A stretch of DNA of 64,000 bases from Platerodrilus igneus (taxonomy: Eukaryota > Arthropoda > Insecta > Coleoptera > Lycidae): contig JARFIW010001480.1 of the NCBI GenBank assembly GCA_036346225.1, forward strand, positions 15,557,501 to 15,621,500, written 5' to 3'. Within the stretch, counting starts at the first letter, position 1, and each line of letters opens with the position of its first letter. Positions 9,899 to 60,645 of the stretch are shown piece after piece. A program made the translations under genes and the position numbers. Below the pieces are notes generated by a model that was not told the origin of the DNA, made no database searches, and was given only the letters and a program-made list of their open reading frames with translations.

Positions 9899-10050
9899 TT
9901 TAAACGGGTCTAAATTTCTGGGTACCGTTTTGTGTCGTTCACTTTAGAAATTTTTTTCGTACACGGTTTGTTCTATTGAAGATTTATTTGCGTCGGTATT
10001 CTTATTGCGGATTGTGGTAATACGTTTTTTGTCGTTATCTAATGTATCTT

Positions 10051-12897: not shown

Positions 12898-13413
12898 TTA
12901 TTTTTTTTCTGTTCGGGGTTCTATCGTGTATTTTTGTTCGGTTTGGATATTTTGAAATTTAATGGAGATTCCTCCGTGTCTCGTTCTTAATAAACGGTTC
13001 TTTATATCAATGTTGGCTCCTAATTTTCTTAGAAGGTCCATTCCTATTAGTCCGTCGTATATATCGTTGAATTCGAAAATACAAAATTTGTGTTTCATTT
13101 TTACATTGAATGTTCTAAGTAACGGTATATTAGCTACGAATTGGTGTAGGGTCGTTTGATGGGCTGCTTTAATTTTAAATCGTTCTCTTTCTACAAAATA
13201 TAAATAATGTTTTTTTACGGTTTGGGGGCTAATTAGTGTTTTTGAGGATCCGGTATCGATTAATAAATTAAGGTCTGCGTGGGGTATTTCGATATATGGT
13301 AGTACTACGTGATTAATATTATTCAAATTTATTAGGTTTGGTCGTTTATAAACCGGTTTATCTGAAAATTCGAGCACGCGTTTTTTTCGTCGTCTTCGTC
13401 GTAGTTTTCGCAT
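12898..13413 (-). pseudogene. pol: Aspartic protease region of the errantivirus-like element
   Basis: A 171-codon frame at the start of pol. The retropepsin active site LIDTGSSKTLIS lies at about residues 51-62, and the flap and closing region (GLIGMDLLRKLGA) follows at about 123-135. The basic N-terminus (residues 1-12) looks like the end of gag or a linker. It would process Gag-Pol in a live element. The frame stops at 12898 before the RT begins near 12568, so it is severed from RT. Confidence 0.8.
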
Positions 13414-31055: not shown

Positions 31056-32477
31056 CTAAACGAGCACGAATATCTTTAAAACCTTTTCAAAAATTGGAGG
31101 TCGATCCACAGGAAGCACAGGATCTTGCCCAATGTCATCACTCACGGGGACTTTGGGTAAATCGTGACTGTCACCCCTATGATGCATTTCACGACTAAAG
31201 TTCACGAAGTACGGCGTGAGACCAGTAGCCTCATGTCTCGACGTACGAACTGCGCATGCGGCTTTCTGAAGCAACGAAGCCCATGTACGTTGATTGTCTT
31301 TAACAAAAGAAGCCAATATAGTTTTCAGAGAACGGTGCTGTCGTTCGGCAGCATTCGGCTGAGGATGATAATTTGCCGTATGGCTGACCTTAACACGATA
31401 GGCATCCATCAGAGATTTAAACTGACGTCCCTGAAGTTGATTGCCGTTATCACAGATTATGGTGAGGGGGACACCGAATAAACAAAACACATGGTCCTCT
31501 AATAATTCAACAAGCTTGGATGAAGTAGCCTCTCTCATGGGGAGAAAAATACAAAACTTACTGAAATAATCCTTTACACTCAACACATACTTGTATCCGG
31601 AAGTGGATCTTGGAAACGGTCCAACAATGTCAACAAAAATAAGTTCCCAAGGTCTTGAGATATCTGGGCGGCCCAAAAGGTATCCAGCAGGTGGTTTCTG
31701 TTCAACCTTGCAAACAATGCAAGTATGACAGTTACGCACATATTTTGCAACATCACTTTTGGCTTTCGGCCAAAAGTACCTAGAACTAATTCGATGGTAG
31801 GTTTTAAAAACATCTAAGTGGCCTGATGTAGGCTCATCATGATTATTACGCACAATCTCCAATCTATGGGACTTGGGGACTACGATCTTCCACTCAGAAG
31901 CAGCCGATTCTAAATCAGGGTATGGGGACTTACACTTTTTGAATAAATTTGACCCATCAAATCGCCATAAGGGAAATCTAAGGGGATCTTTCGAAATCTG
32001 ATCACACATTTTGTGAAACCAACGATCTTTTATATTTTTAAAATGTGGTTCCGGGTTACTAGGGGGTCCGATCTGGTTAATAACAGGCACAAAACGAGAT
32101 AAAGCGTCGGGGACAACGTTGTCTTTGCCACGACGGTGGACAATATCAAAACTGAATTGTTGTAAACGGACACTCCAACGCGCTAAACGACCAGCAGGGT
32201 CTTTTAAATTATCTAGCCAAAGTAAAGCAAAGTGGTCCGTAACAATCGTGAAGTGGGAACCTTCAACATAAGATCTGAACTTGCCGATAGCCCACACTAC
32301 CGCAAGACACTCTTTCTCAGTGGCGGTAAATTTCCGCTCGCTAGGACTCAGAGATCTGCTAATATAACTTATCACCTTTTCGCCATCGGGGTGAATTTGG
32401 GATAAAACAGCGCCCAAGCCATAATCACTGGCATCTGTTTGGATAGTAAATGGTAATTCAAAGTCGGGACAACTCAT
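31056..32477 (-). pseudogene. pol: RNase H and integrase of the young gypsy element
   Basis: A 473-codon open piece of pol. RNase H occupies about residues 1-125, with TDAS (D15), the EKECLAVVW helix and TDH (about 80-82). The integrase zinc domain follows, with H212, H219, C249 and C252. The DDE core has VDIVG (D282), CDNG (D342) and AAERQ (about E377). The piece starts mid-RT because of a frameshift upstream (32477-32568) and ends in a frameshift at about 31056. Both breaks are small indels, so polymerase or sequencing error in homopolymers cannot be excluded for so young a copy. Confidence 0.88.
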
Positions 32478-32567
32478 AATGGGAGCTGATACTAGGAAAT
32501 TTTTAATTTCAGTAAAAGCGGACTCGCATTCATCGGTCCATAAAATTTATGGCCCTTTCGCATTAAT

Positions 32568-33044
32568 TTATTTATAGGGGCTACTACCGTAGAGAAGTTT
32601 GGAAGAAAACGGCGATACCAACCGCATAAACCCAAAAGCGGCGGACTTCAAGAACGTTGCTAGGTTGAGGAAGATCCAAAATGGCCGAAACTTTTCGGGA
32701 TCAACGTGCAACCCTTCCTTATCAACGACGTAGCCTAGATATTTGATTTCGGGTCTACAAAAGTGACATTTCTGTCGAGCTACAGTTAAACCAGCCGATT
32801 TCAACCGACGGAAAATTTCATTGGTTACTTCTAAATGTTTATTGAAGTCGTTAGTAGCAATAACCAAATCATCAAGATAGACGTATACGTAGGAATCGAG
32901 GTCAAGACCGATAACGCGGTCAATAAGTCTCTGCCACGTAGCGGGACTATTATGTAAACCGAAAGGCATTCGGTTGAACTCGAAGAGACCTCTATCGGGA
33001 ACGCTAAAAGCAGTAATTGGGCGGGACGGTTCAGCTACCGGCAC
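32568..33044 (-). pseudogene. pol: Reverse transcriptase palm of the young gypsy element
   Basis: A 158-codon piece with ITAFSVPDRGLFEFNRMPFG, then the catalytic YLDD box at residues 56-59 and the KYLGYVVDKEGLHVDPEKF stretch at about 104-122. The last 38 or so codons look out of frame, so a further indel lies near 32690. RT copies the element RNA into DNA inside virus-like particles. Upstream it is cut from the RT N-terminus by a frameshift at about 33125. Confidence 0.88.
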
Positions 33045-33118
33045 TTGCCAGTAGGCGCTTTTAATATCAATCGAAGTAAGGTACTTGGCGTCGCGAAGTT
33101 TATCGAGGGTCGCTGAAA

Positions 33119-34036
33119 CTAAAGGCAGGGGTAGGCGTCGCGTTCGGTGACCTTATTTACCTTCCGGTAATCAACACAAAACCGATAGCTGCCATCCTTC
33201 TTTCTCGCCATAACCACCGGTGACGACCAAGGACTTGAAGATGGACTAACAACACCTTGTTCTAACATGATGTCCAACTGGGAATTGACAATTTTTTTAA
33301 GGGTTGGAGACAAAGGGTAAAACCTTTGCTTTATTGGTTCAGCACTTGTTCTTATCACATGTTCTACCAAGTGAGTGCAACCTAGTGCGTCGGGCATGTC
33401 TTTAAATAATTGTTCAATCGTCGAATTTAGTAGGGCTGTATGTTCTGGGTTAACTTTATCATCCGATTGTATACTAAATAGGTTTGGTGTTACTGAAGAA
33501 AACTGCCATAGACCGTGGCGTAAGTCAGGTACAATACCCATACTAAACCAAAAATCGGTACCAAGAATCAACGGATCTGGTACGGAAGGAATCACCAGAA
33601 CTTTTATGCAGACAACTTTATTTTGTAATTTAATTGGTAAATTATTAGTGCCACTAATGTTACACATTTGACCATTAGCAACGCGGCATGCTTGAATGTT
33701 ACTAGTTTGAAGTTTTATATTTAATTTACGGAGCTTGTCGTAACCAGCTTGGCCTAATATTGTGTGGGAGGCTCCACTATCAAGCAAACCGAGCATGGGT
33801 ATTCCATAGATGTCCACTTCGAGATAAGGACGTTCGTCGTCTATAACATTCGCCAAAACAAAATTAAGGGTGGCTTTAATAGTAGGGTTAAGATCGTTGT
33901 TGGGGTTATTTTTCTTAGACAGGTCGATCGGATTCGGGGTTGACACAGAGCGCGCAGACCGATCTATCGGCGGCCCAATTGTCCGTTTCCCGAACACTGG
34001 GGACAATTTCGTACGGTATAGTTGGCAGTACCGCAT
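33119..34036 (-). pseudogene. pol: Protease and RT N-terminus of the young gypsy element
   Basis: A 305-codon frame overlapping the end of gag by 73 bases in the -1 frame. The retropepsin motif LLDSGASHTILG lies at about residues 84-95. The RT N-terminus runs from about 241, with SPWSSPVVMARKKDG and FCVDYRKVN. It ends within DAYP, where loss of one base in a short C run (about 33130) brings a premature stop; downstream codons in another frame continue the RT. The first methionine is irrelevant, since entry is expected by ribosomal frameshifting from gag. Confidence 0.88.
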
Positions 34037-35469
34037 TTAAAGCAGCGTAACTTTCTTGGTTGAAGGCATAATCGGAATGGGTGCCCTTCTTTGTCGCAAT
34101 TCCAACACTTAATGGCACACAAGTTCGGTTGGATCTGGTTCACCGGTTGAATTGGTGTCTCGGAAAACTCATAATTTAAAAATGGATTGGTATTGTTCAC
34201 GTTAGTATTAACAAAAGCATAGTCGGGACTACTGTCCTCGATTTGACACAAAACAGCTTTGTGTTTCGATTTATGGTAAGCTAAATCAGGTTCAAGTAAA
34301 CCTTGTGAATTTGACGGGGGTGGGCGGTATTGCCTTGCCCTCAAGTGGGTTTCCTCAAGAGTTTGCCCTAACTGTGATAACTCCGCCATTGTCTTTATGG
34401 GGTGCAATGCCAATTGCGCTTGAATGTGCGGCAACAAATTACGTTTAATTAATTGGATTCTACTATTTTCGGGAGGAGGGTGACGCAAACGACTAAACAT
34501 ATTTTCCATCGCCGAAATAAATATAACAATTCTTTCATCGGGGCCTTGCGTCCGTGATCGAATTTCTTCTTGCAGGATGAATTCATAATCATAAGGTAGA
34601 AAAGCTTGACGTAATCTAGTTTCTAAGTCTTGCCATGAATTAATGGTATGTTTATTCGCCCTATACCATATAAGTGCTTGCCCTTGAAGCAATTCGATTA
34701 CCGAATTGAAAACATGGTGTTTTGATACACCGCGCGAGTCGCATAGTTCTTCCACGCGCTGTAGAAAATCGTTCACACTAGTAGAGCCGTCAAAAGTGCA
34801 ATTCCATTTGTACAATGGAAGGCAATTCTTATTTACATCCGAAAAGTTTCTCCGTACCGGACTAGAGTGAGAAATCCGTTCTGTCTCAATAAACGGGTTA
34901 TCGTCATTTAAATTTATGTTATTATTGTGCGTTACTTCAGGCAATAATAAATTGGGTTGATCTAAAACATGACCCGAAGTATGCGGGATGTCTAAGTCCA
35001 TTAACGACATTTCGCCTTGATCTGAAATTGTTGACACTTGTCTAACAATAGCGGCTTTATTCTGAATTTCAGTTACAAAGTTTATTAGACTTAAGCATTT
35101 GTTTGTAAGTTCATTTTTCCGAATTATTTCATCTTCATTAGAAGAAGTAATTCGTTGCAACCGGTTATCAATATGTGAAAGTCGCGTAGATATGCGTTTT
35201 GATTCATTAGAATGGTTAGAATAATTAAAATTGTTTAAGTCATTATCTAGATTATTAAGCTTGGCTAAACAAATAGCAAGCTCTGTACCAGGTATAATAT
35301 TTAAATTTTCATTAGGCACTAATTCACACGTGACACTTACTTGTAGTAAGTCTCTTAATAATTTACGTTTATCTTCTACATTGGCTTTGGTTAAACAAAG
35401 ACCGCGTATTCTCAATTCATACGAAATTTCATCAGATAATAGTCGATTTACGTCCATATCGATTAACAA
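33964..35469 (-). CDS. gag: Gag of the young gypsy element, intact
   Basis: A 501-codon uninterrupted frame starting about 70 bases inside the PBS. The N-terminal 45 residues (LLSDEISYELRIRG) resemble the short gag remnant at 58183-58335. The middle (about 215-380) looks like a retrotransposon capsid, with W-rich WYRANKHTI and a long Q-rich helix region. Two zinc knuckles end it: CWNCDKEGHPFRLC at 455-468 is canonical CX2CX4HX4C. The second, at 476-489, has Y in place of H. Gag packages the element RNA into particles. It ends at a -1 frameshift signal leading into pol. Confidence 0.9.
   Translation of the reverse strand: MLIDMDVNRLLSDEISYELRIRGLCLTKANVEDKRKLLRDLLQVSVTCELVPNENLNIIPGTELAICLAKLNNLDNDLNNFNYSNHSNESKRISTRLSHIDNRLQRITSSNEDEIIRKNELTNKCLSLINFVTEIQNKAAIVRQVSTISDQGEMSLMDLDIPHTSGHVLDQPNLLLPEVTHNNNINLNDDNPFIETERISHSSPVRRNFSDVNKNCLPLYKWNCTFDGSTSVNDFLQRVEELCDSRGVSKHHVFNSVIELLQGQALIWYRANKHTINSWQDLETRLRQAFLPYDYEFILQEEIRSRTQGPDERIVIFISAMENMFSRLRHPPPENSRIQLIKRNLLPHIQAQLALHPIKTMAELSQLGQTLEETHLRARQYRPPPSNSQGLLEPDLAYHKSKHKAVLCQIEDSSPDYAFVNTNVNNTNPFLNYEFSETPIQPVNQIQPNLCAIKCWNCDKEGHPFRLCLQPRKLRCFKCGTANYTVRNCPQCSGNGQLGRR
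33985..33991 (-). promoter_or_regulatory. -1 ribosomal frameshift slippery heptamer
   Basis: On the minus strand the heptamer GGGAAAC is positioned as G GGA AAC in the gag frame, the required X XXY YYZ register. It lies inside the gag-pol overlap, 18 bases before the end of the gag frame. Slipping back by one base enters the protease frame. A CCGA-TAGA-TCGG hairpin starts about 15 bases downstream and could serve as stimulator. Confidence 0.75.

Positions 35470-38131: not shown

Positions 38132-38178
<47 letters not shown>
38132..38178. repeat. (TA)n microsatellite
   Basis: Uninterrupted TA run, followed by the motif TAATTACACAAGGTAAGTTGATAAATAC that also occurs near 38590 and, inverted, near 48750. 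Confidence 0.95.
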
Positions 38179-38179
<1 letters not shown>

Positions 38180-38315
38180 TAGGTAATTAATTACACAAGG
38201 TAAGTTGATAAATACTATCGTATTACAGTGAAAAAGATGAAATAATAATTTAGACTTGTGCAAAGCCCAAGTGATCATTTCAAATCGAGCTAGTAATTGA
38301 AAGAGGGAAAATATA

Positions 38316-38826
38316 AGGCCTTAGACAGGACTTGAACCTGTATTCTGGTTTTGCCGGAACCATGCGTTTACGAATTACGCCACCGAAACCGATGACGACA
38401 ATTGACAAATTTACAAATTTAAATTGTGTACATAACTATACATAAACCTAACTTTCAATTACGTTTGGCATTTTTGTCAATCATATCTGACATTGTCAAA
38501 TTTTTGACTTGTGTCAGTTATAGACAGAAAGCTACGCTCAAAATTACAGCTATAAGCCAAGTATTAAATATATAAATATTTTAGGTGATTAATTACACAA
38601 GGTAAGTTGATAAATTTTGAGCGTAGCTTTCTGTCTATAACTGACATAAGTCAAAAACTTGACAATGTCAGATATGGTTGAAAAAATGCCAAACGTAATT
38701 GAAAGTTAGGTTTATGTATAGTTGTGTACACGATTTAAATTTACAAATTTTCCAATTGTCGGTGGCGTAATTGCTAAACGCATGATTCCGGCAAAACCAG
38801 GATACAGGTTCAAGTTCTTATATTTT

Positions 38827-42393: not shown

Positions 42394-44406
42394 TTAAACG
42401 CCGGTTTTTATACGTTTTAGGGCAGAAAAGCTTCTTTCTACAGATGCAGATGTTATAGGTATAGTTAAATAAATACTGAGAAATTTATACAATTCTGGCA
42501 TACATCCATGTAATTCATTTTTATACATAAACTTAAGCATCTCCACAGTTGAACTTGATTTACCTAATATTTCTTTGTCAGTATATATAACCAGCAATTC
42601 ACTTTTAAGTTGAACTTTATCGAGAAATGGATACTGACTTTTCAACTCATCAAGTAGCTCATGAGAGAACTTACGCAGATCCAGATACTCTTCAAATTTG
42701 GCTACATTTAGCAATTAAAAAAAAACGGAGTGTACTTAGATCACTAAATCTTACTTAAATCTGATTGATTATAACATCTACAATTTCAAAAAATAGTGCT
42801 TTATATTTCTGACGCCCGCCTGGTAAATCTTCCCGTCTTTATTATGGCTAGTAGAAGCCGTTGACTTGTTATCGCGAACAGTTTCTAGCGAATCATAAAT
42901 TTGATCAAAGAACATGCTATTTGATCTAAATTCTTTTAATTTTATTAAGAGCGATTGCAGTCTGGTTCTCGCGTACGTTGCATCAGTGAGTTTGTGCTGC
43001 AAAATAGAAAACACTACGTCAGTTAGTTTAAAAATTAAATTATATACTTCTAAACAAAATATAAAATCATTATGTTATAAATTTTTTTTCAAACCTGATG
43101 CAGTAGTACTATCAAACTTGTCACTTTCAATGATGTTACTAAAAACTTCTATTAAATTGCTTCTATTAGCAAAAATGGTTAGCACAGCTTTTGGTGTAAA
43201 GTTGCATCGTGTTGAAGCGTTAGTTGGAAGTCTACGTTGGCAGATTTCGTCTAATAAAGCAGTGCGCTTAGACGATTTAGTAAAAAACGAAGAAAATCCG
43301 GATAACGTTTGAAAAAATATTTTGGCTTTTTTTATTGAATTACAAGCATTACTTAACACTAAATTTAATACGTGTGTAAAACAATGTGTAAACAAAGCTT
43401 GTGGAGCGACTGCTTTAATTTGTACTTTTAGTCCATTAAGATGACTAGCCATAACTGCAGCACCGTCATACATTTGAGCAAAAAGTTTGTTCTTAAAGTT
43501 GAACTTAGCAAAACTAGCATTTTGAAATTCAAACAGGCAGTCTGAGGTTTTTTTGGTACGTACATTAAAAAATCCCATGAAATGCTCTACTACGGTTCCG
43601 TCTTTGATATACATAATAACTACTGATAACTGGGATGAAGTTGATACGTCTGTGGTTTCATCGATTTGCCAAGAAAAATAATGGCATTATTTTATTTCAG
43701 AGCTAATATGTTTGTTTAAAACATGATGAAGCGATTCTATTAATTCGTCCTGAATTGTATTTGAAGTACCTAAAAACACCGACTTAGTGTCGCTATCGCC
43801 TTCTATAATTTTTTTTTACCGAAAACAAATAAAAGTTTTAAGAAATTGCCTTTATTTAATGAAGATTCACTTTCATTACACGAAATGGTAGTGCTTGATA
43901 ACACAAATACAGGATTATCTCCAATATCTTTTTAAGTATTTCCCGGTTTTCTGACACTTGTTTATTATATCTTTTAATTTCAATAATACGTGCACTATCG
44001 AAAATGTTTACAATATTTTGTTTACCCAAAAGATGTAATTTGCAATTGGAAGAAATGTGGCCTTTAGATTTTCATGTTTAGAAATTGACCGTGATAAATT
44101 TTTCATGTCCGAGTAACCGGTTTTATACCATACTACCTCACTTCTCGTAAAAAATAGAATGCACGGCCAGCAGAGCAAATTATTAATTTATGTGCTACCA
44201 CACAATCACGGGCATTTTTGGTACCATAAATTAGCAAATGCTCTATTTGGTTTTCCTGCATTGATTAAGGATTTGCTAAGATCTGGGCAAGGTCTTCCTA
44301 AATTTTTAATGTATATTTTATTTTAGTAAGATAACGATGTAAATCCGTTTTGAATTATAAAATGTACAATGTCGTCACACTTTCCGAGTTCAATTTGGTT
44401 TGACAT
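42394..44406 (-). pseudogene. hAT transposase pseudogene 2
   Basis: Readable in four pieces. The start at about 44406 (MSNQIELGKCDDIVHF) leads to a TTF-like zinc finger region at about 44300-44150. 43614-43075 has the transposase middle (MGFFNVRTKKTSD, DGAAVMASHLNG, THCFTHVLNLVL). 43014-42778 has FSILQHKLTDATYARTRLQ, in the same frame as the stretch just upstream of it. 42714-42394 has the hAT dimerisation domain with ITSASVERSFSALKRIK, where it stops early compared with the family. Breaks lie in an A run at about 43080 and near 42720-42770. Not functional. Confidence 0.85.
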
Positions 44407-45573
44407 TTTACAACTATCGCTTAAGATGCATACATACAAAAATATACAGCAGACGCTGACTCTTCTATGTTTCTGGTAATTAATAACTATTACCGTTACC
44501 GCCAACGCTAATTACGAAATTAATTAAACTAAAAGGTAGTCAAAGTACCTCATTCCAATCGCAGTTTTTAAAATAAACATTAGATAAATTTGAACTGAAT
44601 GCTTGTACGGATAACGCATAAGACAAAACGAGCACTGTATGTACAGGTGAAAATCAATCTAACGTTTAAATGAATATAAGTATATTTTCAAAATTTTACA
44701 TTATGTTCGAATAACAGGTAGGTAGCAACTGATTCACAATATAGAAATCTATCATAGAAATGAGTCAGACTTAGCAAGTACAATAAGGCTTTGTGTTGTC
44801 ATTGGAATGGGTTTATCGCATCCGCCTATAACTACCATGAGAGGCAGTTTGAATACTTCTCTCACACAACAAATACGAAAGTCTGAGAGTTAACAAACAC
44901 TTATTCTTAATTTTCATTTCTTTCTGTTCTTGTTCCTAAATAATTATCAGATTAGGTATTTATCGCATAACTGTGTATTAGAATTCGATATCGAATGAAT
45001 AGACATGTTATTATTTTAAAAAACGAAATCAAAACCTTTTGCTCTGTATGTTTGTTATACTTGGCGGTTCGGATTACATAGTATAATAAATAACAATCCA
45101 TGGCTCATTTAAAAGTGATTTCTTTAAAAGTTAGCCTTTATTAATTAGCACTAAGTAGTTAATTTTATAACTTGACATGCTCCGCCAAACCTGTAATTGT
45201 AAATCGTTTTTATATTAAACATCGACTACTATTTTATCCGTCAAATATAAGTGCACTTGAGGCCAGGTACCGGTCTGCCTCTCAACACAGCCTATAAGTT
45301 ATAAAGCACGGAACTAAAACGCCAGAGACCAAAGTTATGTATAAAAATGGGTTAAGGTTTCTGAACTGCAATGAACGTTGATGATTATGAATTAGGATCC
45401 ATGGTCATTTATAATAGACCAAAAATTAATAAAAGTGTGGCTAGCTAAAAGTGTGGCTAGATTTTAAATAAAAATAAAAATTTTAAATTGATATTTATGA
45501 GTTAGTTTTGAATTTAGATTTTTCTGTTCTTATTTTAGGGTGAGGCACTGCCTCACTGGAGAAGCCGCCCTTG
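42394..45573 (-). mobile_element. Second hAT transposon (ZMYM/DUF4371 type), decayed
   Basis: The minus-strand 5' end is marked by a terminal repeat at about 45540-45573, reading CAAGGGCGGCTTCTCCAGTG and then GAGGCAGTGCCTCA, a small palindrome often seen at this type of hAT end. About 1.1 kb of leader precedes a broken transposase (44406-42394). No matching terminal repeat or target duplication was found to the left, so the 3' end seems truncated or decayed. Same domain plan as 1216-4568, but clearly different in sequence. Confidence 0.7.
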
Positions 45574-46328
45574 GCAGAAAGTCGTCAGCTAATGCACTTT
45601 TAATCTGATGTGCTAATGTAATATTCAAAATGGTAAGAAGTCTAGTACGAAATGGTTTATTTTTGTGGGACTGGTTCAGGACTCTAAAAGTAAAGTAACT
45701 TTTATATCTGCATCTTTAAATTTTTGGTACTATAAATGCAAACCTTTTATCATTTTTATCAGGAACTATGAAAAGTGCTATAAAATTGTTGTTTTTCTTT
45801 TGAGTAAAACCTCTCTAACTTCACAGACACTATACTTTCTTGTTTACTTTTACAGAACAAATTTTAAAACTGCAACTGACTGCAAATTGTAACGAGACAG
45901 CGCGAAATAAAAAGAAAACTCTTTGCAGCACGCTTTTATGAGTTTGGATTGCAGTACGTACACGTTTTTACTTCGTACGTGTGTTGCCATAGTAACCATG
46001 CTCCCGGCAACTTTCCCAATTATCGTAAATGTTATTTTGACATATGATAAACTTATCGTAAAAGACTGTAAAAAATCACTGTTCCTGATTGTTGTGAGTG
46101 TCATTTTGCTTCTTGGAGCTTGAACTGCAAGTGATGTATACCAGGTAAATTTTGTATTTCCTGCGAACCTAAAAAAAAACAGCTTTATTATTTTGTATGA
46201 AAATTTAAAATTTAGAAATATATATATTTCTTGAGAGTTGTTCCATTTAAATAACCTTGTTAAAAACCTTCCGTACGGTAGAAAATAAAGTTTATCTTCT
46301 ATAAATGCAAGAAGATACAAGCCCACGT

Positions 46329-46385
<57 letters not shown>

Positions 46386-46640
46386 AAGCGTATTTTAGAA
46401 AACCGAATGGTTGCGAATTCATACACGCTATTCACTTATACAATAACAATTCTCTTAGTGACTTGCAGAAAGTGTAACTGTATTGCCAACACAAAACATT
46501 ACATCGTACAAAAATAATTTATACAGCTGGCAAGCGTTCCCTTAATTACATAAAGTTAATTATGTTGGTATTTCGGATATAGCTAACAGTTTGCCTCGTT
46601 TGCTAAATAAATGACCTTAGATTTATATGCCCCCGGGGTT
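45574..46640. other. AT-rich DNA with a TA array
   Basis: A TA microsatellite occupies 46337-46383. A 190-codon minus-strand frame reaching into it is not supported by any recognisable family. Confidence 0.5.
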
Positions 46641-46930
46641 CTTTTACGTGCAGGAAATTGCCAATCTCCTTAACAACGCAATGAGATTCAAGTTTACGTT
46701 AGCTTTCAATATGACTTGCCGAAATCCCAACTGAAGGACATGATGAGTTTGTTAATGGCCAGCTTTATACTCAAGTAAATAACTACGCTTATGTTTATAA
46801 TCCCTTTACATGCACTTATTAAAGGTGTCAAAAGATCCACCCTTTAAACTACAGATAAACGATTTATACCTTAAAATTTAGTTAGAAGAAATCTCGTGTT
46901 TGCAAAGTTTACCAATTCAACGTTATATTA
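46640..46930 (+). repeat. Dispersed repeat D, copy 1
   Basis: Resembles 61240-61500 in the same orientation. The clearest blocks are CCCTTTAAACT[A/G][C/A]AGATAAA[C/T]GAT followed by CTTAAAATTTA and a TTTGCAAAG / TTGCAAAGC block. Upstream similarity is weaker. Confidence 0.5.
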
Positions 46931-47698
46931 ATATCTTGCACTAGGATTTTAAAAATATTAAATGAGGTCAGTGGGGGGGATTTCCTAATAGGGAAGATGT
47001 GTTTTCATAAAATTATAAACAGAAACTAAAAATGACGAAAATAAACATTACTCCCTGTGTCACAAATTATGGTATAAATTTCTTCAAAATCGTTTGTTTA
47101 TGACATTTAAAGAAGTTAACAAGTTTCAAACACTTCATGTCGGAAAAAGACATATTCCTAGTACATTTATAATTAGTTGTGCTCAAAACAAATTTTGAAA
47201 TTTTGTTTCTGTTAGTTGAAGGAAAACACAAAAAGTACAAAATTAAAATGACACCTTCTTAAGGATACAATGAGCGTTACCCAAATAAATATCGATTTGC
47301 CCTAAAGGATCGGACACTCCATAACAATAAAAGGGTGCGTCGGCTAACTGCAGTGATGCAGGAGAGGAATCTATGGAATAAAAGTTATAAAATAAAATAA
47401 AAATATTCAAAATAAAAATCATAAATAAAAAATTGATAAATAAAATGGTTGAAATACAAAAACTGCGTTACATTAGTCAGTTACCCTGTAAGGCTTTTCC
47501 TCTTTGTCATAATTAAAGACGTTAAACAGTCTGTCATAGCAATCCCTCCAATATTACTCCTACACGGAAGAAGGTTAATCTGCATAGGCCTCCCTTTCTC
47601 GATTTTCTAAATTCTATCACCTTATGCGTTCCTTTCTCTAAAATATCACAAAACCATTCTTTAGTTTTTATCATAATTAAAAGTATATTATTTAATGT

Positions 47699-47796
47699 GC
47701 ATGTAATGATGGCTATTATAATTCACGAGTATGTTTTGAAATACGAACCGAAAACTAGTATCGTAAAACATCGAGTGAATAATAGCCATTACATGC
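47699..47796. repeat. Near-perfect hairpin (foldback element)
   Basis: Arms GCATGTAATGATGGCTATTA (from 47699) and AATAGCCATTACATGC (to 47796) are complementary over 30 or more bases, including the ATTCACGAGTATGTTTT / AAAACATCGAGTGAAT part, with a loop of about 27 bases. It is an extruding-type palindrome, possibly a small MITE or the end of a larger element. Confidence 0.75.
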
Positions 47797-48013
47797 GAGT
47801 ACAATATGATACTTTCTCTACCACTATGTAGATATTTTGTTTCACTATAGAGCTATTATATTGGTATGAGTTCGAAGGAATCTTAGTACCATTACAAAAG
47901 TAAGTAATGCGCCATCAGATGGTGAAACACCAACACTACTAAGTGCGAAAGTACAAAAATTGATTCGAAACTACATCGTAGTTTTATAGCTGGCTATACA
48001 AGTATGTTTCGCC

Positions 48014-48180
48014 TTCAAACTCATATCAGTATAATAGCTTCGATTACTTCTTAGGGTTGTTGGAAAACAAGTCGCTCTGACGATACTTAATAAAGCTGAA
48101 ACCGGTCAGTGGATGTTTCCTCGTCTTGTAAAGTAATAAAGCTATGGTTTTGTTTATGACTATACAACTAATAACCCGAT
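48014..48180 (+). repeat. Hammerhead-containing tandem unit, copy 1
   Basis: 167 bp, a direct repeat of 48521-48687 at about 88 percent identity by eye. It runs from ACTCATATCAGTATAATAGCT through a hammerhead motif to TTTGTTTATG and CCCGAT. The first bases are also found inverted at about 47851-47880. Confidence 0.85.
48072..48112 (+). ncRNA. Type I hammerhead ribozyme motif, copy 1
   Basis: Core elements in the right order: TCGCT (stem I), CTGACGA, a stem II with loop AATA, GAAA, CCGG (minimal palindromic stem III), TC, then AGTG (stem I). Stem II here is TACTT/AAGCT with two mismatches next to the core, so this copy is probably weakened. Predicted cleavage follows C48107. Confidence 0.65.
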
Positions 48181-48520
48181 TTGTAAAGGTGAATAAGCTC
48201 TTATTATTTTCGTAAGAATTTATTCACAGATACATCTTATTTTTTATTTTGTTGTACATTGCGAACTGCAATAATTTGTCCTTTTATTATTATGAATTGC
48301 CTTGGGACAAAAAACGGGTGACGCCACGAGGAGGTTGTTACGTTTGCAAATAAATTTTGATATAACATTTCGCAAATCTCAAAGGCGAGACATACTTGTA
48401 TAGCCATCTATAGAACTACGATGTAGTTTTGAATCAATTTTTGTACTTCCACACTTAGTAGTGTTGGTGTTTTACCACTTGATTTCGTATTATTTACTTT
48501 TGCCATAGCACAAAGATTCC

Positions 48521-48683
48521 TTCGAACTCATATCAGTATAATAGCTTGGATTACTTCATAGGGTTGTTGGAAACTAAGTCGCTCTGACGAAGCTTAATAA
48601 AGCTGAAACCGGTCAGTGAGTGTTTCCTTCCCTTGTGAAATAATAAAGCTATTGTTTTGTTTATGGCCTTACAACTATCAGCC

Positions 48684-48687
<4 letters not shown>
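48521..48687 (+). repeat. Hammerhead-containing tandem unit, copy 2
   Basis: Direct repeat of 48014-48180. It is followed by a TA array and by GGTGAATAAGCTGTTATT...ACAGATACATC (48856-48940), which repeats the sequence found after copy 1 (48187-48270). The larger tandem period is thus about 507 bp plus TA expansion. Confidence 0.85.
48579..48619 (+). ncRNA. Type I hammerhead ribozyme motif, copy 2
   Basis: A complete hammerhead: stem I TCGCT pairs with AGTGA, CTGACGA and GAAA form the core, stem II is perfect (AGCTT/AAGCT, loop AATA), and stem III is the palindrome CCGG followed by TC. Predicted self-cleavage follows C48614. The palindromic stem III suggests activity as a dimer, as described for minimal hammerheads of Penelope-like elements and some satellite DNAs. 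Confidence 0.8.

Positions 48688-48720
<33 letters not shown>
48686..48720. repeat. (TA)n microsatellite
   Basis: TA run after hammerhead unit 2. It is separated from the next one by 60 bases that are an inverted copy of the TAATTACACAAGGTAAGTTGA motif at 38183. Confidence 0.95.
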
Positions 48721-48724
<4 letters not shown>

Positions 48725-48777
48725 ATAAGATGAAATAATACGATAGTATTTATCAACTTACCCTGTGTAATTAACTA

Positions 48778-48779
<2 letters not shown>

Positions 48780-48857
<78 letters not shown>
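48780..48857. repeat. (TA)n microsatellite
   Basis: The longest TA run of the window, about 78 bases. Confidence 0.95.
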
Positions 48858-48859
<2 letters not shown>

Positions 48860-48959
48860 TGAATAAGCTGTTATTGGTTTCGTAAGAGTTTATTTACAGA
48901 TACATCTTATTTTTTATTTTGTTGCACATTGCAAACTGCAAATAACGAGCCCCTACGAG

Positions 48960-49534
48960 GGTTTTATTTATTTTTAGCCCCACGGTTGGGCATGTCATAA
49001 AATGTTGTGTTATTCCCTATATATTAATCAAGCACTTGTGAAATGTTAAGTTATAGATTTTCTTTGCCTCAACTAGCTGATTCAATTAAATAAAGCAATT
49101 CAAGTTCGAATATTAATAAGAATAACCATTGCTAAATTTTTATGATGTAAGAAGAACAACACTATCTAATTATTTGTGAGATATAGGTGTTGAGGAGATT
49201 ATTGTGTATATATTTTTCCTAACTATAACTAAGATAGTCGAATTTTTTTGAAGTTAATTTTGTTAAGAGAAATCATTGTAAATATTTTTCAACTGATACT
49301 TAACAGAATAGAAATTCATTTCGGTCACGTCTATCATTATTAGTTGGAATGAGCGAGGTTTGATTCTTAGTAATTATAAACTTTTTTGAATTAATTAACA
49401 GAATGCACAAACTGGGCTAGCATTGGTTTAGTTTGATTACAGGTGTAACAGTGCATCTTTATCAAGCAATATTGAGCCAGACGGTAAGCATTTGTAAAGG
49501 TTATGTTCACGTGATATTTTTAGTATAGCGGTAT
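48960..49534. other. AT-rich DNA without recognisable features
   Basis: No coding sequence, array or repeat shared with the rest of the window was seen. Confidence 0.5.
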
Positions 49535-49790
49535 TTGAGAATAGGTTTCCGCATTCCCCTTATACAAACAGACTAAAATTAGGTCTTCATTGTATTCAAA
49601 AATTCGGTGGCGCCATATTCACTATATGTTTGGCCGTAATCCAAACCCGACCCAAACTCATGTTCTACCCAGAGCAAATCACTCTACTAGCCGCTTAGTC
49701 TTTGTAGGTTTCTTTATCTATGAGCCGTTTTCCATCTAAACTAACCTTGGGCTCTTTACATCAACAGGAAATCCTCGTTAATTATCCTTG
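49535..49790 (+). repeat. Dispersed repeat A, copy 2
   Basis: Same-strand counterpart of 365-625, with shared CCGCATTCCCCTTATACAA, CGGTGGC, CTACCCAGAGC and ACCTTGGGCT blocks. It ends about 180 bases upstream of the mariner-like pseudogene. Confidence 0.6.
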
Positions 49791-49974
49791 TGCCTTTTAG
49801 TTGGCAATATAGGAGTAAAACCCAGTAGTAAGGCAAAACGTTACAAGGTATTCGTGAAATAAGGTGCATCTATATTTTAGTTTATCCATTTCAATTTACT
49901 AAATTTTCCTTCCCCACCATTTATTGCTAGGGTAACGCCACGCGTTACAACCTGTTTAGAAGTAAATATGGAAG

Positions 49975-51080
49975 GTATAGTTAAAGGAAATAGTGTGCGC
50001 GTGTGTAAGAAAAAGTCAAAAAATCTAAACAATTGACTTGTGACCAGCGTAATGGAATTTTACAGTTCGTACTGCAACATAAAGTAGGGAACAAATTGAG
50101 GCTCGGTGTTGTTAACGATGCTGCAAGTAAATGTAACGTTAACGATTAATCGTGTTCCAAATCTAGCAAAGGGCTAAGGAACAATATGATCAAGGATCTC
50201 CTTCTGTGGATGTTTCGGCTAGAAAGAAAAAGGACAATGTGGTCAATAAACCAAAAACGATTCGAAAATTTGAATAATATTCAGAATATCCCGTTGAATC
50301 ATAGCAATACCTTCCGCAGTTTGTCTTGTGCAGCTAAAATTTCAATATCAAGCTTTTTCCGCATATTTAAAGAGGGTAAACAGTTGAAAGGAATATCATC
50401 AGCAGTGAAACGGAACAAAACAAAACTAGTCCGAGTTGAATTTTGCTTATCGAAAGTGAAGCCAAATGGACTTTTTAAGACATGTATGACTACGTACTTT
50501 TAGATGAAAAATGATTTTACTTGGCCCAAGTTAAACCAACGTACTATGTCCTGTTTGATGAACAAGAGTAGAGATTTTCTCAGTAAGCGCTTTATTACAA
50601 AAGTAATATTCGTGGCTCCAGTGAACAGAGAGTGATATGACCGTGCTAAAGAGATTGAATTTGCCATTTGTTTATTAAGAACCCTCCAAATGAAGCAGTG
50701 AAGATTAAGAAAGAAAAAAATTAGTAACAAAAATCTACCACCAATGCCGTTGAATGTAAAAGAATAATTGTTGAAAATATTTGATGAACCATCAGATCTA
50801 AGTTTCTAGAGAGACATAAACTAAAACCCTTATACATTCAACAAAACAATGGTAAACCGCATGCACCTGATTATGATGAGGTTGTGCTGACTAAAGGATC
50901 AAAAGGTGGATAGAACTTTCAATTGAAATGATTGGAATCAAATAATCCCGATTTAAATGCTTTAGATCTTGGTCCTTTCAATTTAATTCAATTGCTCCAG
51001 CACCAAGAGAAAATAGCAGCACCTGGTGTAACCCAATTGCAATCCAAGCAAACGTACTGCGACTTTTAAATCACCAAATA
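49975..51080 (+). pseudogene. Mariner/IS630-like transposase pseudogene (plant-type DDxD)
   Basis: Decayed over its length but recognisable in plus-strand frames. The N-terminal helix-turn-helix part (VTSVMEFYSSY region; QRNGILQFLLQHK in the best frame) is at about 50030-50110. 50186-50503 has SLSCAAKISISSFFRIFKEGKQ and RVEFCLSKVKP. The first catalytic aspartate is in DEKWFY near 50503, where W is now a stop (TGA, 50512). KRFITKV follows near 50590. The second site reads QQNNGKPH near 50840, so the catalytic D is N. The third is PDLNALDLG near 50950. Both the stop and the D-to-N change make it inactive. Terminal repeats were not found. Confidence 0.75.
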
Positions 51081-51289
51081 TGCCCCACCCATAATCTGTA
51101 TACTTTATTTTTTCCAGTTCTTATTATGATAGTCTTCCTTCACATGTAATACGTAGGTAATATGAACGGAGGAGTACGAATTGCGATTATGAAGGAAAAC
51201 TCCCTTCAAGCTTAGAGTAGACGAATCAATAAATAGTCTCTACTCATTAGTTTTGTATTTATATTCTAATTTATCCATTAGTCCAGGAA

Positions 51290-51694
51290 CATCTACACAG
51301 TACACCAACTGATTATACCATGTAAAAAATTAAGAAAGTCTTATTCCTGTCGCCGATATATAGAAATACACGTACCACTCTGTAATAGATTTCAACCTTG
51401 AAGTCTGGATCCCAACAGTTCGGCTTGAGCATTTGACAAATTTAAATCCCGTACCAAGTTGTTAATCTCATCTTGTGAAGGTACATCAAATGTTTGGAAA
51501 TCAGGATCCGCATCTTCTTCCGTAGGTTCAACATTATCTTCAGCAGCATTCATATCATCGGCAAGTGTATAAGATCCTGGACGTTTGGAAACAGGTAAAT
51601 TCTCGCTGTGAAGAACAGGTGTAAGAGCTGATTGCAGGTTTGAGTATTGTACAGTATCCTTTGACTTCAGTAAAATTCCAGATAGATTCGTCAA
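51290..51694 (-). pseudogene. Fragment of a repetitive arthropod protein of unknown function
   Basis: A 100-codon frame with an acidic middle (about residues 51-70, ending in DPDF), then QDEINNLVRDLNLSNAQAEL and LGSRLQG. I recall a widespread uncharacterised arthropod protein family with a DPDF ... ELNDLVRDLNLSK ... AELLGSRLKGWNLL motif, often multi-copy. Here the W after LQG is a stop (TGA, at about 51392), and NLLQ follows in frame. Nothing downstream of about 51290 is readable. Function unknown. Confidence 0.5.
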
Positions 51695-51699
51695 GAAAA

Positions 51700-52150
51700 A
51701 AGGCTGAGTTTATCAGAATTGAAAATACATCATTTTGTTTGCTTCTTCACTTTCTCCTTAACTACTTTTAAACTTATGCAAATAATCTTTCTTTTATTTT
51801 ATTTGGAAATTATAGAGATTTTTTATACTAGAAATAATAATGTAGTTTCGGGGTTGAATATTTTAGATTTCCTATAACTTGTGCATATAAACTGTAGGAA
51901 GTAGAGTATATAATTTTTATTTACTGATTTTGATTGTTTATATTTATTTATGTAGTTAATTATATTCACTAAATTCTAAGTACTTAGAAGTAAATATTGA
52001 AGTTTTGATAATAACTTTTTGTTTTTATAGAAGAGTTATTTTATTATCCAAGGATTTTTTATTATAAGCGTAATTAATTTTATATAGAAATATGGTCATC
52101 TCAAGTATAAAATGTTTTTATAGAGCAAAACGTCTATTTTGTTCATTACA
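51700..52150. other. AT-rich DNA without recognisable features
   Basis: Highly AT-rich stretch with nothing recognisable. Confidence 0.5.
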
Positions 52151-53770
52151 ATCATTATAACTAGATCTTCAGTTCTAGAATTGATTGAACGCGTACTCCC
52201 ATCGTTTCCTATTCTTAGTTAACCCATATATTTCTCTGAAATTACCACAGCTCAAATCTTTCACTATCTTTGTGCAATCTAGGTCTTCCATCACCTCTTT
52301 TTTCCTTCTCTGCATCTAATATATGCCGCCATATTCCCTCATGCCCTAGTGTGTGTGTCCCATCATCCTTATCATCATCATTAGGGTTTCAGTCTTGGAA
52401 CTGGTTAGTTGCGTACCTTCATTGCTTCATATTCTGAGCCAACCTGAAATTTTTCTGAAATTTTCACAGCCTACATCTTTCACTATTTGATTGAAATGTT
52501 TAATCTAGGTCTACATATACCTCTACCTCTCTTTTTTCTACTTTTTCTTGTAATATATCCTCCACTATTTCCCAATGCCTTCTATTTCTTCTACTTTTTT
52601 TTCAACAGATATTTTAATTCTCTTATTATTTCTAGGACTTCTTTGGCCTTAACTTTGTCTGTCTTTGCTATCATCCTCACACATCTGAAACACCACATTT
52701 CACAGGTTTTACCTATTTCCTGTTTTCTTCTCCTACTGTCTCCGTTACATAGCCGTATAGTGCTCTGCTCCACACATATGCTTACAACAATTTTTTCCTT
52801 GCTTCTATGTTTATTGTCTTCGAACATAGCCGCTGCTGTTTCTTACCAGATACAGTTTGGTTCCCCTTCAATTGTTTTCTAAATATATACCATACTTCAC
52901 CGCTATTCAGTGGTACGCGAAAGGAGTCAAGCAATCTGACGACTACTAAGAATGTTGTTTTTTCTTCTTTCGATTTCGGCCATCTATGAACCACGTGAAA
53001 TAACTTATGATCATTATGTTTCTCCTCTTTTTCTTCTCTTCCAGTACTCTTTCATTTTTTCTCCGTGTTGTTTCTTTCTTTCTTGCATTTTGCTCCAGTC
53101 TTCTCTTTTTCCTTTACTTGGAAACCTTTGTACCCTCTTACTTTTACTCTGATTTTTTCACTTCGTTCTACCTCTTTTCTATATATGTTCATTTCTTTTA
53201 TATTTTTTTTCATTTCTTTGATCCAGGCCATCTGTATCTTAGGATTTCTGTCAAAGTAACTGAATAGTTTTTTTGTTATTATGTTATTATATTCTTATTA
53301 TTATTAATTTTTACGCCTTTATTAATAACCATTGGCCGCTGAATCAGGATGTAACTAACGCGACTATTTCACTCGACAATGGTCGGAAGTGAACTTGAAA
53401 CCTTCGTATTATTTCTATTGTCGTGTCCAAAATTGACTTACATTTTGTTGCTACTTGTATTTGTTTTTATAATTATGATTATTCATTAATAGTTTTCCAA
53501 TTAATCCTTTTGCATAATGAATGTTTGTTGAGCATATTGCAAACCCACACCACCTGTAGGTGTTTACAATAATCATTAGGTTTAAGTACAATTACTTTTA
53601 CCATCGTTCTATTTTTCATCTTGGAACTGCTTAGACGCGTACTACAATGATTTCCATTCTGAGCTAACCCACACATTTCTCTGAAATTTCCACAACTCAC
53701 ATCTTTCACTATCTGTGTGCAATAGTCTAACCTAAGTCTACCTCCAACTCTATTTTTTTCTATTTCTGCT
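52150..53770 (-). mobile_element. Tandem LINE remnants (RT ORF C-terminal ends)
   Basis: The minus strand carries the tail of a non-LTR retrotransposon ORF2 in at least three overlapping copies. The block containing CTTTCACTATCTTTGTGCAA recurs in variant form at about 52256, 52475 and 53702. In translation it gives CTKIVKDLSCGNFREI, the RT-ORF C-terminal region. 52827-52591 reads CEMWCFRCVRM and KVKAKEVLEIIRE, matching the family motif FEMWCYRRMLRI...TNEEVL. Decay is heavy. The debris continues at 60646, on the other side of the inserted LTR element. Confidence 0.7.
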
Positions 53771-55676
53771 TGTAACGAATTTTTTTTTAAATGGCTGGCC
53801 CCACTCATGGGTGCTAGTGAAACGTTTGCCCCACGTTGTGAGCACCAGTGCAACTATTTTTCCTTAGAGGCTCCTGCCCCACTCATGGGCGCAAGTGAGT
53901 GGAAGTCTTCCGACATAACTAGGGGTCTATTCCTTGGGTAGAGCTATGAGAAATGGGGGGTAAGTCAAAATCTGTTTGTAGGTCAAACTTAATCTAAAAC
54001 AAATAGGCGCCACCAAGTCCGGACTTATTCAGGATAATGGCATGGCATATTTCTAAGGGCGGACGTGGAGACCCAGAGAAAAAAAGATCGCCTTTGATGA
54101 CAAAAACCTGTCTTAATAAAATAAGACGCTGTTCCTGTAAGAAATTATAATAGTTAGGTTAATAAAAAAGGTGGAACACTATTTGTGTCCCGCAAATATA
54201 TATAAAGAACTAGTAAAAAGATATTTTCAATATAAAGTTGGCATCAAAATTCTACTCTTAAGGATGTTAGCTTTCTGTGGTTAGGTTTGATCATATTTGA
54301 TCAAAATAAAAAACTTTAATCTTGAACCAATTATTTACTAAAAAGAATCTCTTTTAAAATAAAATGAATTGCAACAAAAATTTAATTAATAACTGAATTA
54401 CTTCGTGAATTTTAATTTCAGGTTTATCTAAATTATTCATAATCAAACATTTTACAGTATATTGTAAACTTGTTACACAAAAAAACTCCGACCCGTGCGG
54501 ATCTGTTCAGGCAGGTTACATCTAAAAATGTTACTACTCAAGTTTTTCCTTTTTAAATTACATGTGCTAGTTTCAGTTTCTAAAAAAGCAGATCACAAAA
54601 ATACTCTTGTTTACATAACTTGTGCTAAAGCTGTTCGAAGCATTTGCTTTCAAGAATACATCTGTCAGCAGTATACTACAGAAAAATAAGTGACGTCAGT
54701 AACACCTGTTGTTGTTACTAACGATTCATAATGAACCACGCGTGTTGTTTCTCAAAACATAAAATTAGTGAATTTTAATTTCGACACTGGAAATCCAGCT
54801 CAGCAATAGTTGAAACTTTTATAATATTCATGCTTTTACACATTAGAACAAATTAACGTGTTTCTAATGTGAAACACCAAAAAAGTACTTAAAGCTAACT
54901 ACGAACCAAAAACTGCTTTTCTCGCCTTGATGAGGTACCTGTTATTTCATGCGAAGATTACTGCATGTAGTGTGAACCAAGCTCATACTAAACAACTTCT
55001 ACCAAATGGAGTTGTTCCACGTGTAGAATCAAATACGGTCACGATACATTCGGCAGCTGCTGCAATCCGGATGTTGAATCACGCTGCCTCACCAAATTAG
55101 CATTTTTACGTTGTATAACAAAGTGGTCTTCTTAAAATTGGTTGAACTTTCTATTTTCAAAGTTGCATTTTTAATTGTAGCATTCTTCACGTCGTATAAC
55201 AAAGTGGTCTTCATAAAATGGGTTAAATTTCCTATTTTCTAAGTTGCATTTTTAATTGTAGCATTCTTCACGTCGTGCTAAATAAATTATCTCAAATTAA
55301 ACAAGTTAATAACCTTCATACGATACCAACCGCTATTCAAAGATGTGTCCCGACTCCACAAAGTTGATACGCAAATTGCCGGCATGCAGTCTTTGGTACA
55401 TCTTATCGCTTCTTCCACGTATGGCCGACTGATTACAAAACTAGCTCGGCCGACCGAGGCGTCCGAGGAGGGGACTGTCAAACCGAAACGCGCCTGCGAA
55501 TAGCTGCAGACGACACAGATACAGATATTTAACCACAAATAGAATACCAAAGGACGATGCTGCTTTAATGTATTACCTTAGTTGTTAAATGTATTTTACC
55601 ATTATTTTAATAAAAGTGTTTGATTATTCTCGCACTTTTATGAAGGGATTTATTAATCAAAAATAAAATTGTTACA
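53771..55676 (-). repeat. 3' LTR of the deleted gypsy element
   Basis: TGTAAC...GTTACA ends. It contains an 81-bp tandem duplication at 55108-55269, with a third partial unit, and the same at 60070-60252 in the other LTR. Short frames inside (for instance 55550-55287) recur in the other LTR only because the LTRs are copies. Confidence 0.93.
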
Positions 55677-58746: not shown

Positions 58747-60645
58747 TGTAACAAATTTTTTTTAAATGGCTGGCCCCACTCATGGGTGCTAATGAAACGT
58801 TTGCCCCACGTTGTGAGCACCAGTGCAACTATTTTTCCTTAGAGGCTCCTGCCCCACTCATGGGCGCTAGTGAGTCGAAGTCTTCCGACATAACTAGGGG
58901 TTTATTCCTTGGGTAGAGCTATGAGAAATGGGTGGGTAAGTCGAAATCTGTTTGTAGGTCAAACTTAATCTAAAACAAATAGGCGCCACCAAGTCCGGAC
59001 TTATTCAGGATAATGGCATGGCATATTTCTAAGGGCGGACGTGGAGACCCAAAGAAAAAAAGATCGCCTTTGATGACAAAAACCTGTCTTAATAAAATAA
59101 GACGCTGTTCCTGTAAGAAATTATAATAGTTAGGTTAATAAAAAAGGTGGACACTATTTGTGTCCCGCAAATATATATAAAGAAGTAGTAAAAAGATATT
59201 TTCAATATAAAGTTGGCATCAAAATTCTATTCTTAAGGATGTTAGCTTTCTGTGGTTAAGTTTGATCATATTTGATCAAAATAAAAAACTTTAATCTTGA
59301 ACCAATTATTTACTAAAAAGAATCTCTTTTAAAATAAAATGAATTGCAACAAAAATTTAATTAATAACTGAATTACTTCGTGAATTTTAATTTCAGGTTT
59401 ATCTAAATTATTCATAATCAAACATTTTACAGTATATTGTAAACTTGTTACACAAAAAAACTCCGACCCGTGCAGATCTGTTTAGGTAGATTACATCTAA
59501 AAATGTTACTACTCAAGTTTATCCTTTTTAAATTACATGTACTAGTTTTAGTTTCTAAAAAAGCAGATCACAAAAATACTCTTGTTTACATAACTTGTGC
59601 TAAAGCTGTTCGAAGCATTTGCTTTCAAGAACACATCTGTCAGCAGTATACTACAGAAAAATAAGTGATGTCAGTAACACCTGTTGTTGTTACTAACAAT
59701 TTATAATGAACCACGCGTGTTGTTTCTCAAAACATCAAATTAGTGAATTTTAATTTCGACACTGGAAATCCAGCTCAGCAATAGTTGAAACTTTTATAAT
59801 ATTCATGCTTTTACACATTAGAACAAATTAACGTGTTTCTAATGTGAAACACCAAAAAAGTACTTAAAGCTAACTACGAACCAAAAACTGCTTTTCTCGC
59901 CTTGATGAGGTACTTGTTATTTCATGCGAAGATTACTGCATGTAGTGTGAACCAAGCTCATACTAAACAACTTCTACCAAATGGAGTTGTTCCACGTGTA
60001 GAATCAAATACGGTCACGATACATTCGGCAGCTGCTGCAATCCGGATGTTGAATCACGCTGCCTCACCAAAGTAGCATCTTTACGTTGTATAACAAAGTG
60101 GTCTCCTTAAAATTGGTTGAACTTTCTATTTTTAAAGTTGCATTTTTAATTGTAGCATTCTTCACGTCGTATAACAAAGTGGTCTTCATAAAATGGGTTA
60201 AATTTCCTATTTTCTAAGTTGCATTTTTAATTGTAGCATTCTTCACGTCGTGCTAAATAAATTATCTCAAATTAAACAAGTTAATAACCTTCATACGATA
60301 CCAACCGCTATTCAAAGATGTGTCCCGACTCCTCAAAGTTGATACGCAAATTGCCGGCATGCAGTCTTTGGTACATCTTATCGCTTCTTCCACGTATGGC
60401 CGACTGATTACAAAACTAGCTCGGCTGACCGAGGCGTCCGAGGAGGGGACTGTCAAACCGAAACGCGCCTGCGAATAGCTGTAGACGTCACAGATATTTA
60501 ACCACAAATAGAATACCAAAGGACGATGCTGCTTTAATGTATTACCTTAGTTGTTAAATGTATTTTACCATTATTTTAATAAAAGTGTTTTATTATTCTC
60601 GCACTTTTATGAAGGGATTTATTAATAAAAAATAAAATTGTTACA
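58747..60645 (-). repeat. 5' LTR of the deleted gypsy element
   Basis: 1,899 bp, a near copy of 53771-55676, with the same 81-bp internal tandem duplication. Confidence 0.93.

Follow-up and report, generated by a model that had tools for sequence, protein, structure and literature searches.

Tandem hammerhead motifs in a beetle repeat with traits of retrozymes and Penelope-like elements

Two hammerhead-like motifs lie in tandem, 507 nt apart from start to start, within a 64-kb stretch of the Platerodrilus igneus genome that is referred to here as the window. Do they belong to a retrozyme-like RNA unit, to the terminal part of a larger retroelement, or to a decayed repeat in which the hammerhead is a fossil? 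Minimal hammerheads reportedly occur in the pLTRs of Penelope-like elements, in work attributed to Cervera and de la Pena (2014) and Luense et al. (2017). The core pattern CTGANGA-N6..24-GAAANCGNTH matches the window twice, at 48077-48107 and 48584-48614 on the + strand, compared with a mean of 0.04 matches per shuffle in 100 shuffles, none of which had two. A stricter scan that required stems I, II and III matched copy 2 alone, and gave 0 matches in 60 first-order Markov sequences. Both window copies carry the type I core CUGANGA...GAA with a UH cleavage triplet. Judged by these scans, the motifs are genuine and not chance matches, and the initial annotation of two tandem type I hammerheads is borne out.

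That annotation also gave both copies stems I, II and III and had every helix of copy 2 paired. For copy 2 this stands in stems I and II: TCGCT (48579-48583) pairs with AGTGA (48615-48619), and stem II (AGCTT-AATA-AAGCT, 48591-48604) is fully paired between the core (48584-48590) and GAAA (48605-48608), with a predicted cleavage site after C48614. Stem III, annotated as CCGG, is the palindrome ACCGGT (48608-48613), which has no loop; from this geometry, pairing would therefore be possible only between two copies. In copy 1 (core 48077-48083; GAAA 48098-48101; ACCGGT 48101-48106; C17 at 48107), two core-proximal pairs of stem II are mismatched (TACTT/AAGCT), so this copy is probably crippled. 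The stem II loop region of both copies contains AATAAA (48596-48601 and 48089-48094), which is replaced by AAGAAA or similar in most other aligned copies and is unlikely to be a conserved poly(A) signal. The covariance search proposed as a check had a divided outcome. Rfam found no hammerhead at gathering scores in the window, nor at E ≤ 10 on 47500-49100; a model built from 29 other copies of the element, with the window copies left out, matched copies 2 and 1 (E of about 5e-22 and 3e-17) and had no further match in the window at E ≤ 10.

A search of the window's own genome (2.71 Gb) with the pattern CTGACGA-N10..20-GAAACCGGTC gave 358 matches, against 0 for the reversed control. Viral contigs, searched separately, gave 0 matches. 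This pattern fixes the core and stem III, so that the palindrome ACCGGT is preset at the loci picked. Among the first 100 of the 358 matches, 345 of 400 stem II cells are paired (shuffled mean 234, maximum 274, 2000 shuffles), and the 78 distinct strings among them have 263 of 312 cells paired against a shuffled maximum of 211. Most of the excess in these 100 matches comes from the contrast between two families. In family 1 alone, 121/140 cells are paired (shuffled maximum 120), and in family 2 alone the observed 142/172 is attained by shuffles (maximum 145); the families had been split on the 5' letters of stem II themselves. In the hammerhead part of the 29 sequences, window excluded, there are 20 double-change cells (shuffled mean 9.8; 0/500 shuffles reach this), the covariation score is reached by 1 of 500 shuffles, and 85.9% of cells are paired compared with 33.9%–54.9% when the partners are slid; pairs with double changes show no excess (5 against 4.8 shuffled). 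These comparisons indicate that stem II is maintained through paired changes. The initial annotation had staked its case on stem pairing being conserved in other genomic copies and had proposed a search for further units; the pairing is conserved, and tandem units do recur at other loci.

Support was likewise found for the annotated reading as a retrozyme-like RNA unit whose hammerhead is of dimer type, in a non-coding unit of ~507 nt. Scored genome matches to copy 1 and segment C DNA numbered 40, of 2942 first-look candidates; among these 40, matches of at least 320 bases outside the window are 80%–86% identical. Layout was compared in 40 loci, the window and 39 others (among which L038 probably duplicates L026), and parts of segment B matched in all 39. 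In tandems, segment C (U417-507 of a 507-nt reference unit whose core starts at U203 and whose cleavage falls after U233) sits between tail and segment A; the order of the full unit is therefore 5' C-A-B-tail 3'. C and A (48272-48585) have stops in all six frames. Unit spacing is 507 nt in the window, ~525 in L010, 479 in L011, 523 in L029 and 462 in L031; it is 460 in family 2 (L012), a second, diverged family that has kept the hammerhead in its 460-bp units and in L049 has one partial and four nearly full units consecutively. Family 2 occupies L012 583-1989, L049 674-2858 and L050 as tandems of 460-bp units, near-identical in L012, with head-to-head inverted starts; it is perhaps younger than family 1.

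When BLAST hits were classed automatically, with neighbours up to 120 bp apart taken as tandems and up to 40 bp apart as inversions, head-to-tail tandems occur in 17/40 loci, a head-to-head inverted partial copy at the 5' end, as in Penelope-like elements, in 14/40 (the window among them), and a weak tail-to-tail contact in one. Beyond the 40-bp rule, L018 has two tail-to-tail inserts 97 bp apart and L037 a head-to-head pair ~80 bp apart. The 5' ends of unit copies vary and the 3' end recurs: 11 of 60 outer 3' hit ends fall at U413-416 (48287-48290 in the window), and another 11 at U383-385, where the alignment halts at a variable stretch and several loci, L013 and L030 not included, continue to the same CTTGTC-type terminus. 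Both 5' ends and inversion junctions cluster at ~U172-202, which may be a product of choosing loci by an intact core. Target site duplications were sought for 27 inserts; none was convincing, the best shared words being short, (TA)n, or off the ends.

The window carries this layout in reduced form, with one hammerhead in each copy of a direct repeat (see the table). The tail of unit 2 stops ~16 nt short of the usual 3' terminus, with no (TA)n behind it. With stem II broken in copy 1 and unit 2 split by (AT)n, the locus reads as a decayed relic.

Table. Features of the element in the window (positions are those of the window).
Feature	Position	Strand	Basis or remark
Inverted copy of the A segment with 28 nt from B, facing copy 1 head-to-head	47851..48015	-	88% complementary to 48382-48546
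Segment B copy 1: hammerhead region and 3' tail	48012..48271	+	87% (48012-48185) and 91% (48184-48271) identical to copy 2
Hammerhead copy 1, two stem II pairs broken	48072..48112	+	Covariance model E 2.8e-17
Unit 1 3' terminus (to ~48290), followed by segment C (5' part of unit 2)	48272..48381	+	C lies between tandem units
Segment A of unit 2	48382..48518	+	Lies 5' of B in related loci
Segment B copy 2: hammerhead hairpin	48519..48692	+	Repeat identity, fold
Long imperfect hairpin (extended stem I), hammerhead at tip	48528..48666	+	MFE, z -5.0, pairing in 24 sequences
Hammerhead copy 2	48579..48619	+	Full stems I and II; E 4.6e-22 in leave-out model
(AT)n - ~60 nt - (AT)n block splitting unit 2 between hairpin and tail	48686..48853	.	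Middle largely recurs at 38132-38225
Unit 2 3' tail	48854..48941	+	91% identical to 48184-48271

Several other features of the window were recorded. A stretch of ~50 nt occurs three times (38132-38225, 38565-38615 and 48721-48780), twice beside long (AT)n, and may mark the terminus of a further element associated with (TA)n. Just upstream of the unit, 47698-47797 is predicted to form a strong, fold-back or MITE-like hairpin (-36.2 kcal/mol for 47690-47800) that has no close match to the unit. A tRNA-like sequence at 38317-38389 (Rfam tRNA, 40.9 bits) is followed downstream by a similar inverted stretch, identified by eye at ~38760-38825; between the two lies the window's most stable fold over 150 nt (38501), and the region may be a fold-back or SINE-like element. 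Two gypsy-type elements lie on the - strand, one at 31056-35469 with gag, protease, RT, RNase H and integrase in several frames, and one at 8491-13413 in which protease, integrase and Baculo_F were matched. Protein matches point to an insect host: the best named row for a gypsy-type pol is from a leaf beetle, and for a SETD1 exon the top named rows come from insects. One 81-bp tandem repeat is present in two places 5 kb apart (55098-55276 and 60072-60251).

How would such a unit fold? At its minimum free energy (-46.4 kcal/mol), copy 2 is predicted to fold into the single long hairpin, whose tip is formed by hammerhead stems I and II and whose core is partly paired; when the core is kept open, copy 2 has -43.6 kcal/mol. 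Its fold z-scores (300 shuffles) are -5.0 for 48525-48670 and -3.7 for 48519-48685, those of copy 1 being much weaker (-1.8 for 48018-48163 and -0.5 for 48012-48185). Across 24 copies including the window, 86.1% of hairpin cells are paired, compared with 42.7%–51.8% when partners are slid by 1–3 columns. The covariation score of the long hairpin in these 24 copies (0.190; 0.084–0.123 slid) is reached by 16/500 shuffles and its 21 double-change cells by 50/500; pairs with double changes (9, against 10.4 in shuffles) are not in excess. The RNAalifold consensus of the 24 copies does not recover the hammerhead and has instead an almost invariant CUGAC/GUCAG pairing, with which copy 1 alone also folds. 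Such a pairing would block the core and keep a lone copy inactive. In isolated copy 2 a partly blocked core is favoured (-9.6 against -6.8 kcal/mol). The internal loop of stem I faces loop II with no legible loop–loop contact, and stem III is minimal.

The flanks of the units bear on how they move. A (TA)8+ tract lies within 60 nt past the projected terminus at 19 of 35 outer 3' ends, window unit 2 being among the 16 without. The background is 0.7% of window positions with (TA)8+ wholly inside the next 55 nt, a contrast that is somewhat overstated, the 3' ends having been searched over 60 nt plus the distance to U416. Twelve loci (family 2, duplicates and Penelope pieces) were left out of this count. 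Rather than being a target, the (TA)n may have been added as a tail upon insertion.

The initial annotation had seen no RT or GIY-YIG frame near the motifs, and Pfam found neither domain in six frames of 43501-53202; the only match was a sub-threshold DUF4371 (E 0.016). A tblastn search of the window with two Penelope pieces from one locus gave no match. At L007/L009, two overlapping frames beside a unit encode RT and GIY-YIG (RVT_1 E 2.9e-5, under the gathering score; GIY-YIG E 1.1e-5, over it), and the Penelope endonuclease piece has 150 scored genome matches of 35882 first-look candidates. In nine of 12 Penelope loci read, a (TA)6+ tract follows the endonuclease at a distance of 493–607 nt. 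Two of the loci, L052 and L056, have a head-to-head layout, and L057 holds a tail-to-tail pair ~1 kb apart. The Penelope copy of L033/L034 has a 1036-nt head-to-head inversion (98.9%); one of its outer ends abuts (TA)n, and at the other the (TA)n lies ~35 nt further out. A candidate hammerhead in the 3' region of this Penelope copy (CTGAAGA...GAAA) was rejected by inspection, as it has no UH site before a possible stem I. In these comparisons the integration marks of the units and of the same genome's Penelope copies are similar.

Is the unit then part of a Penelope element? L009 at first seemed to prove either that the unit serves as a Penelope pLTR or that a template jump had occurred; both ideas were dropped after comparison with an empty site. 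At L009 7707-8022, a paralogue has the same unit and (TA)n without Penelope, and the flanks of the filled and empty sites agree at 98% over 496 bp on the 5' side and at 90% over 715 bp on the 3' side. The filled site has a ~1.6-kb, 5'-truncated Penelope at the (TA)n of the unit's 3' end. That Penelope copy therefore used a (TA)n site, the unit not being its pLTR, and the one contact of unit and Penelope, at L009/L051, is a nested insertion. Among the 12 loci read, none has a unit as a pLTR flanking a Penelope ORF (L051 alone has a unit, nested). The joined L033/L034 stretch has no unit, and the joined L035/L019 stretch has units only ~3 kb past the endonuclease. An ORF for RT and GIY-YIG between repeats was seen neither in the window nor in the loci read. 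The repeat has a minimal type I hammerhead motif and no visible ORF that it would terminate, and the annotation of the block as the terminal part of a larger retroelement found no support in these searches.

Among known systems, metazoan non-LTR retrozymes (Cervera and de la Pena 2020, PMC7229834, as far as the available text goes) have in common with the units a small size, the absence of coding sequence, a tandem arrangement and a type I hammerhead; in animals, a repeat of this description goes by the name retrozyme. Low GC, neither LTR nor ORF, and a proposed mobilisation in trans are likewise shared. In the available part of that paper, metazoan non-LTR repeats are 150–450 bp and circles 150 to >1000 nt, with canonical hammerheads in the coral case, and Penelope elements are strong but unproven candidate movers. 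The units here measure 460–525 bp and differ from that description in the loop-less palindromic stem III, the long extended stem I and the head-to-head inversions. The minimal hammerheads of Penelope pLTRs, as described in the accessible portions of PMC7761336 and PMC6155905, agree with ours in the minimal type I core, the want of a proper stem III, a proposed dimer action and the tandem layout. On the same partial descriptions, our units differ in having no ORF inside them or adjoining them as pLTRs, no core ATG, and a long hairpin beneath the motif.

For Penelope itself, the portions available record inverted pLTRs with palindromic junctions (PMC3846280), and AT-rich targets with internal RT initiation (PMC11167929). 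The Adineta vaga elements (PMC3846280, in part) resemble the units in a head-to-head inverted terminal repeat that overlaps a direct one, in junction palindromes and in 5' truncation; a further likeness is the movement in trans of foreign sequence set between pLTRs. They encode RT and GIY-YIG, which the units do not. The pDo500 satellite of Dolichopoda cave crickets (PMC2837043), compared by its description in part of that paper, is likewise a ~500-bp hammerhead repeat of insects; it makes up ~5% of one genome and its stem III folds within one sequence, in contrast to the intermolecular palindrome here. Our literature search, in which subscription journals were only partly covered, found no earlier report of the element.

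In the reading that we consider probable, with room for error, the unit is a non-autonomous, retrozyme-like retroelement whose predicted hammerhead is of Penelope type and depends on a dimer, and Penelope machinery probably mobilises it in trans. What sequence comparison gives to this reading is the motif, its covariation, the unit, the tandem and inverted layout, the recurrent 3' end, the (TA)n and the Penelope-like marks. Counting against it are the RNAalifold consensus with its blocked core, the number of double-change pairs at shuffled level, the stem II excess that lies mostly between families, the hit ends away from U413-416, the tail-to-tail pairs in L018 and L057, and the want of convincing target site duplications. 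The most serious competitor, which we regard as unlikely, takes the repeat to be the pseudo-LTR of an autonomous Penelope-like element, the tandems being pairs of pLTRs from which the ORF has been lost or between which it was not copied. Both the palindromic stem III and the layout fit this, and published Penelope pLTRs, in the parts of PMC7761336 and PMC3846280 available, do hold minimal type I hammerheads in tandem and inverted arrangement. Tandem units recur without an intervening ORF, however, and in the 12 loci read of 35882 candidates no Penelope ORF has the unit beside it as its pLTR. The core CTGACGA also lacks the ATG that the Anolis element, in the source as available, takes as its ORF start.

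That some other reverse transcriptase (LINE or other) moves the units, with only the (TA)n preference in common with Penelope, is less probable again. Tracts of (TA)n could be targets of several elements, and 5' truncation is general among non-LTR elements; the head-to-head inversions in 14/40 loci, found in Penelope copies of this genome too, count against it. The decay of the window locus, with its broken stem II and its unit split by (AT)n, is what a plain satellite or decayed repeat with a fossil, roleless hammerhead would lead one to expect. Yet the units are scattered across many contigs, their 5' ends vary and their 3' end recurs, and stem II appears preserved by paired changes, which makes this reading very improbable.

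For a retrozyme-like unit carried by Penelope, the following cycle may be proposed. Tandem units would be read through into multimeric RNA, in which two copies could pair via the palindrome ACCGGU (stem III) and the hairpin arms in trans. Self-cleavage after C17 would release unit-length, circularly permuted RNA that may be ligated into a circle. Cleavage, dimer action and circles would follow by analogy from the known behaviour of such motifs, as set out in the available parts of PMC7761336 and PMC6155905. The reverse transcriptase is probably of Penelope type: an RT/GIY-YIG protein encoded elsewhere would cut (TA)n DNA, and reverse transcription would begin near U413-416 and proceed toward the 5' end. 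More than one round of a circle, or passage across a multimer, would yield tandem copies; stopping anywhere would yield 5' truncation, and frequent fold-back would yield head-to-head inversion.

The element joins traits of retrozymes and of Penelope. Tentatively, and with somewhat more doubt than belief, we suggest that it stands for a class bridging retrozymes and Penelope-like elements, namely hairpin-borne, dimer-only hammerhead units that form circles and are copied by Penelope RT at (TA)n. The palindromic stem III and the long arms, which could pair in trans, suggest why Penelope-type hammerheads might need a dimer. This one insect genome, with 358 hammerhead-pattern matches, a numerous Penelope family and a filled and an empty site, offers material for a test of trans-mobilisation. 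If the bridging class is real, the enzyme that moves animal retrozymes becomes testable with both partners in one genome, which would be relevant to the spread of RNA repeats in animals.
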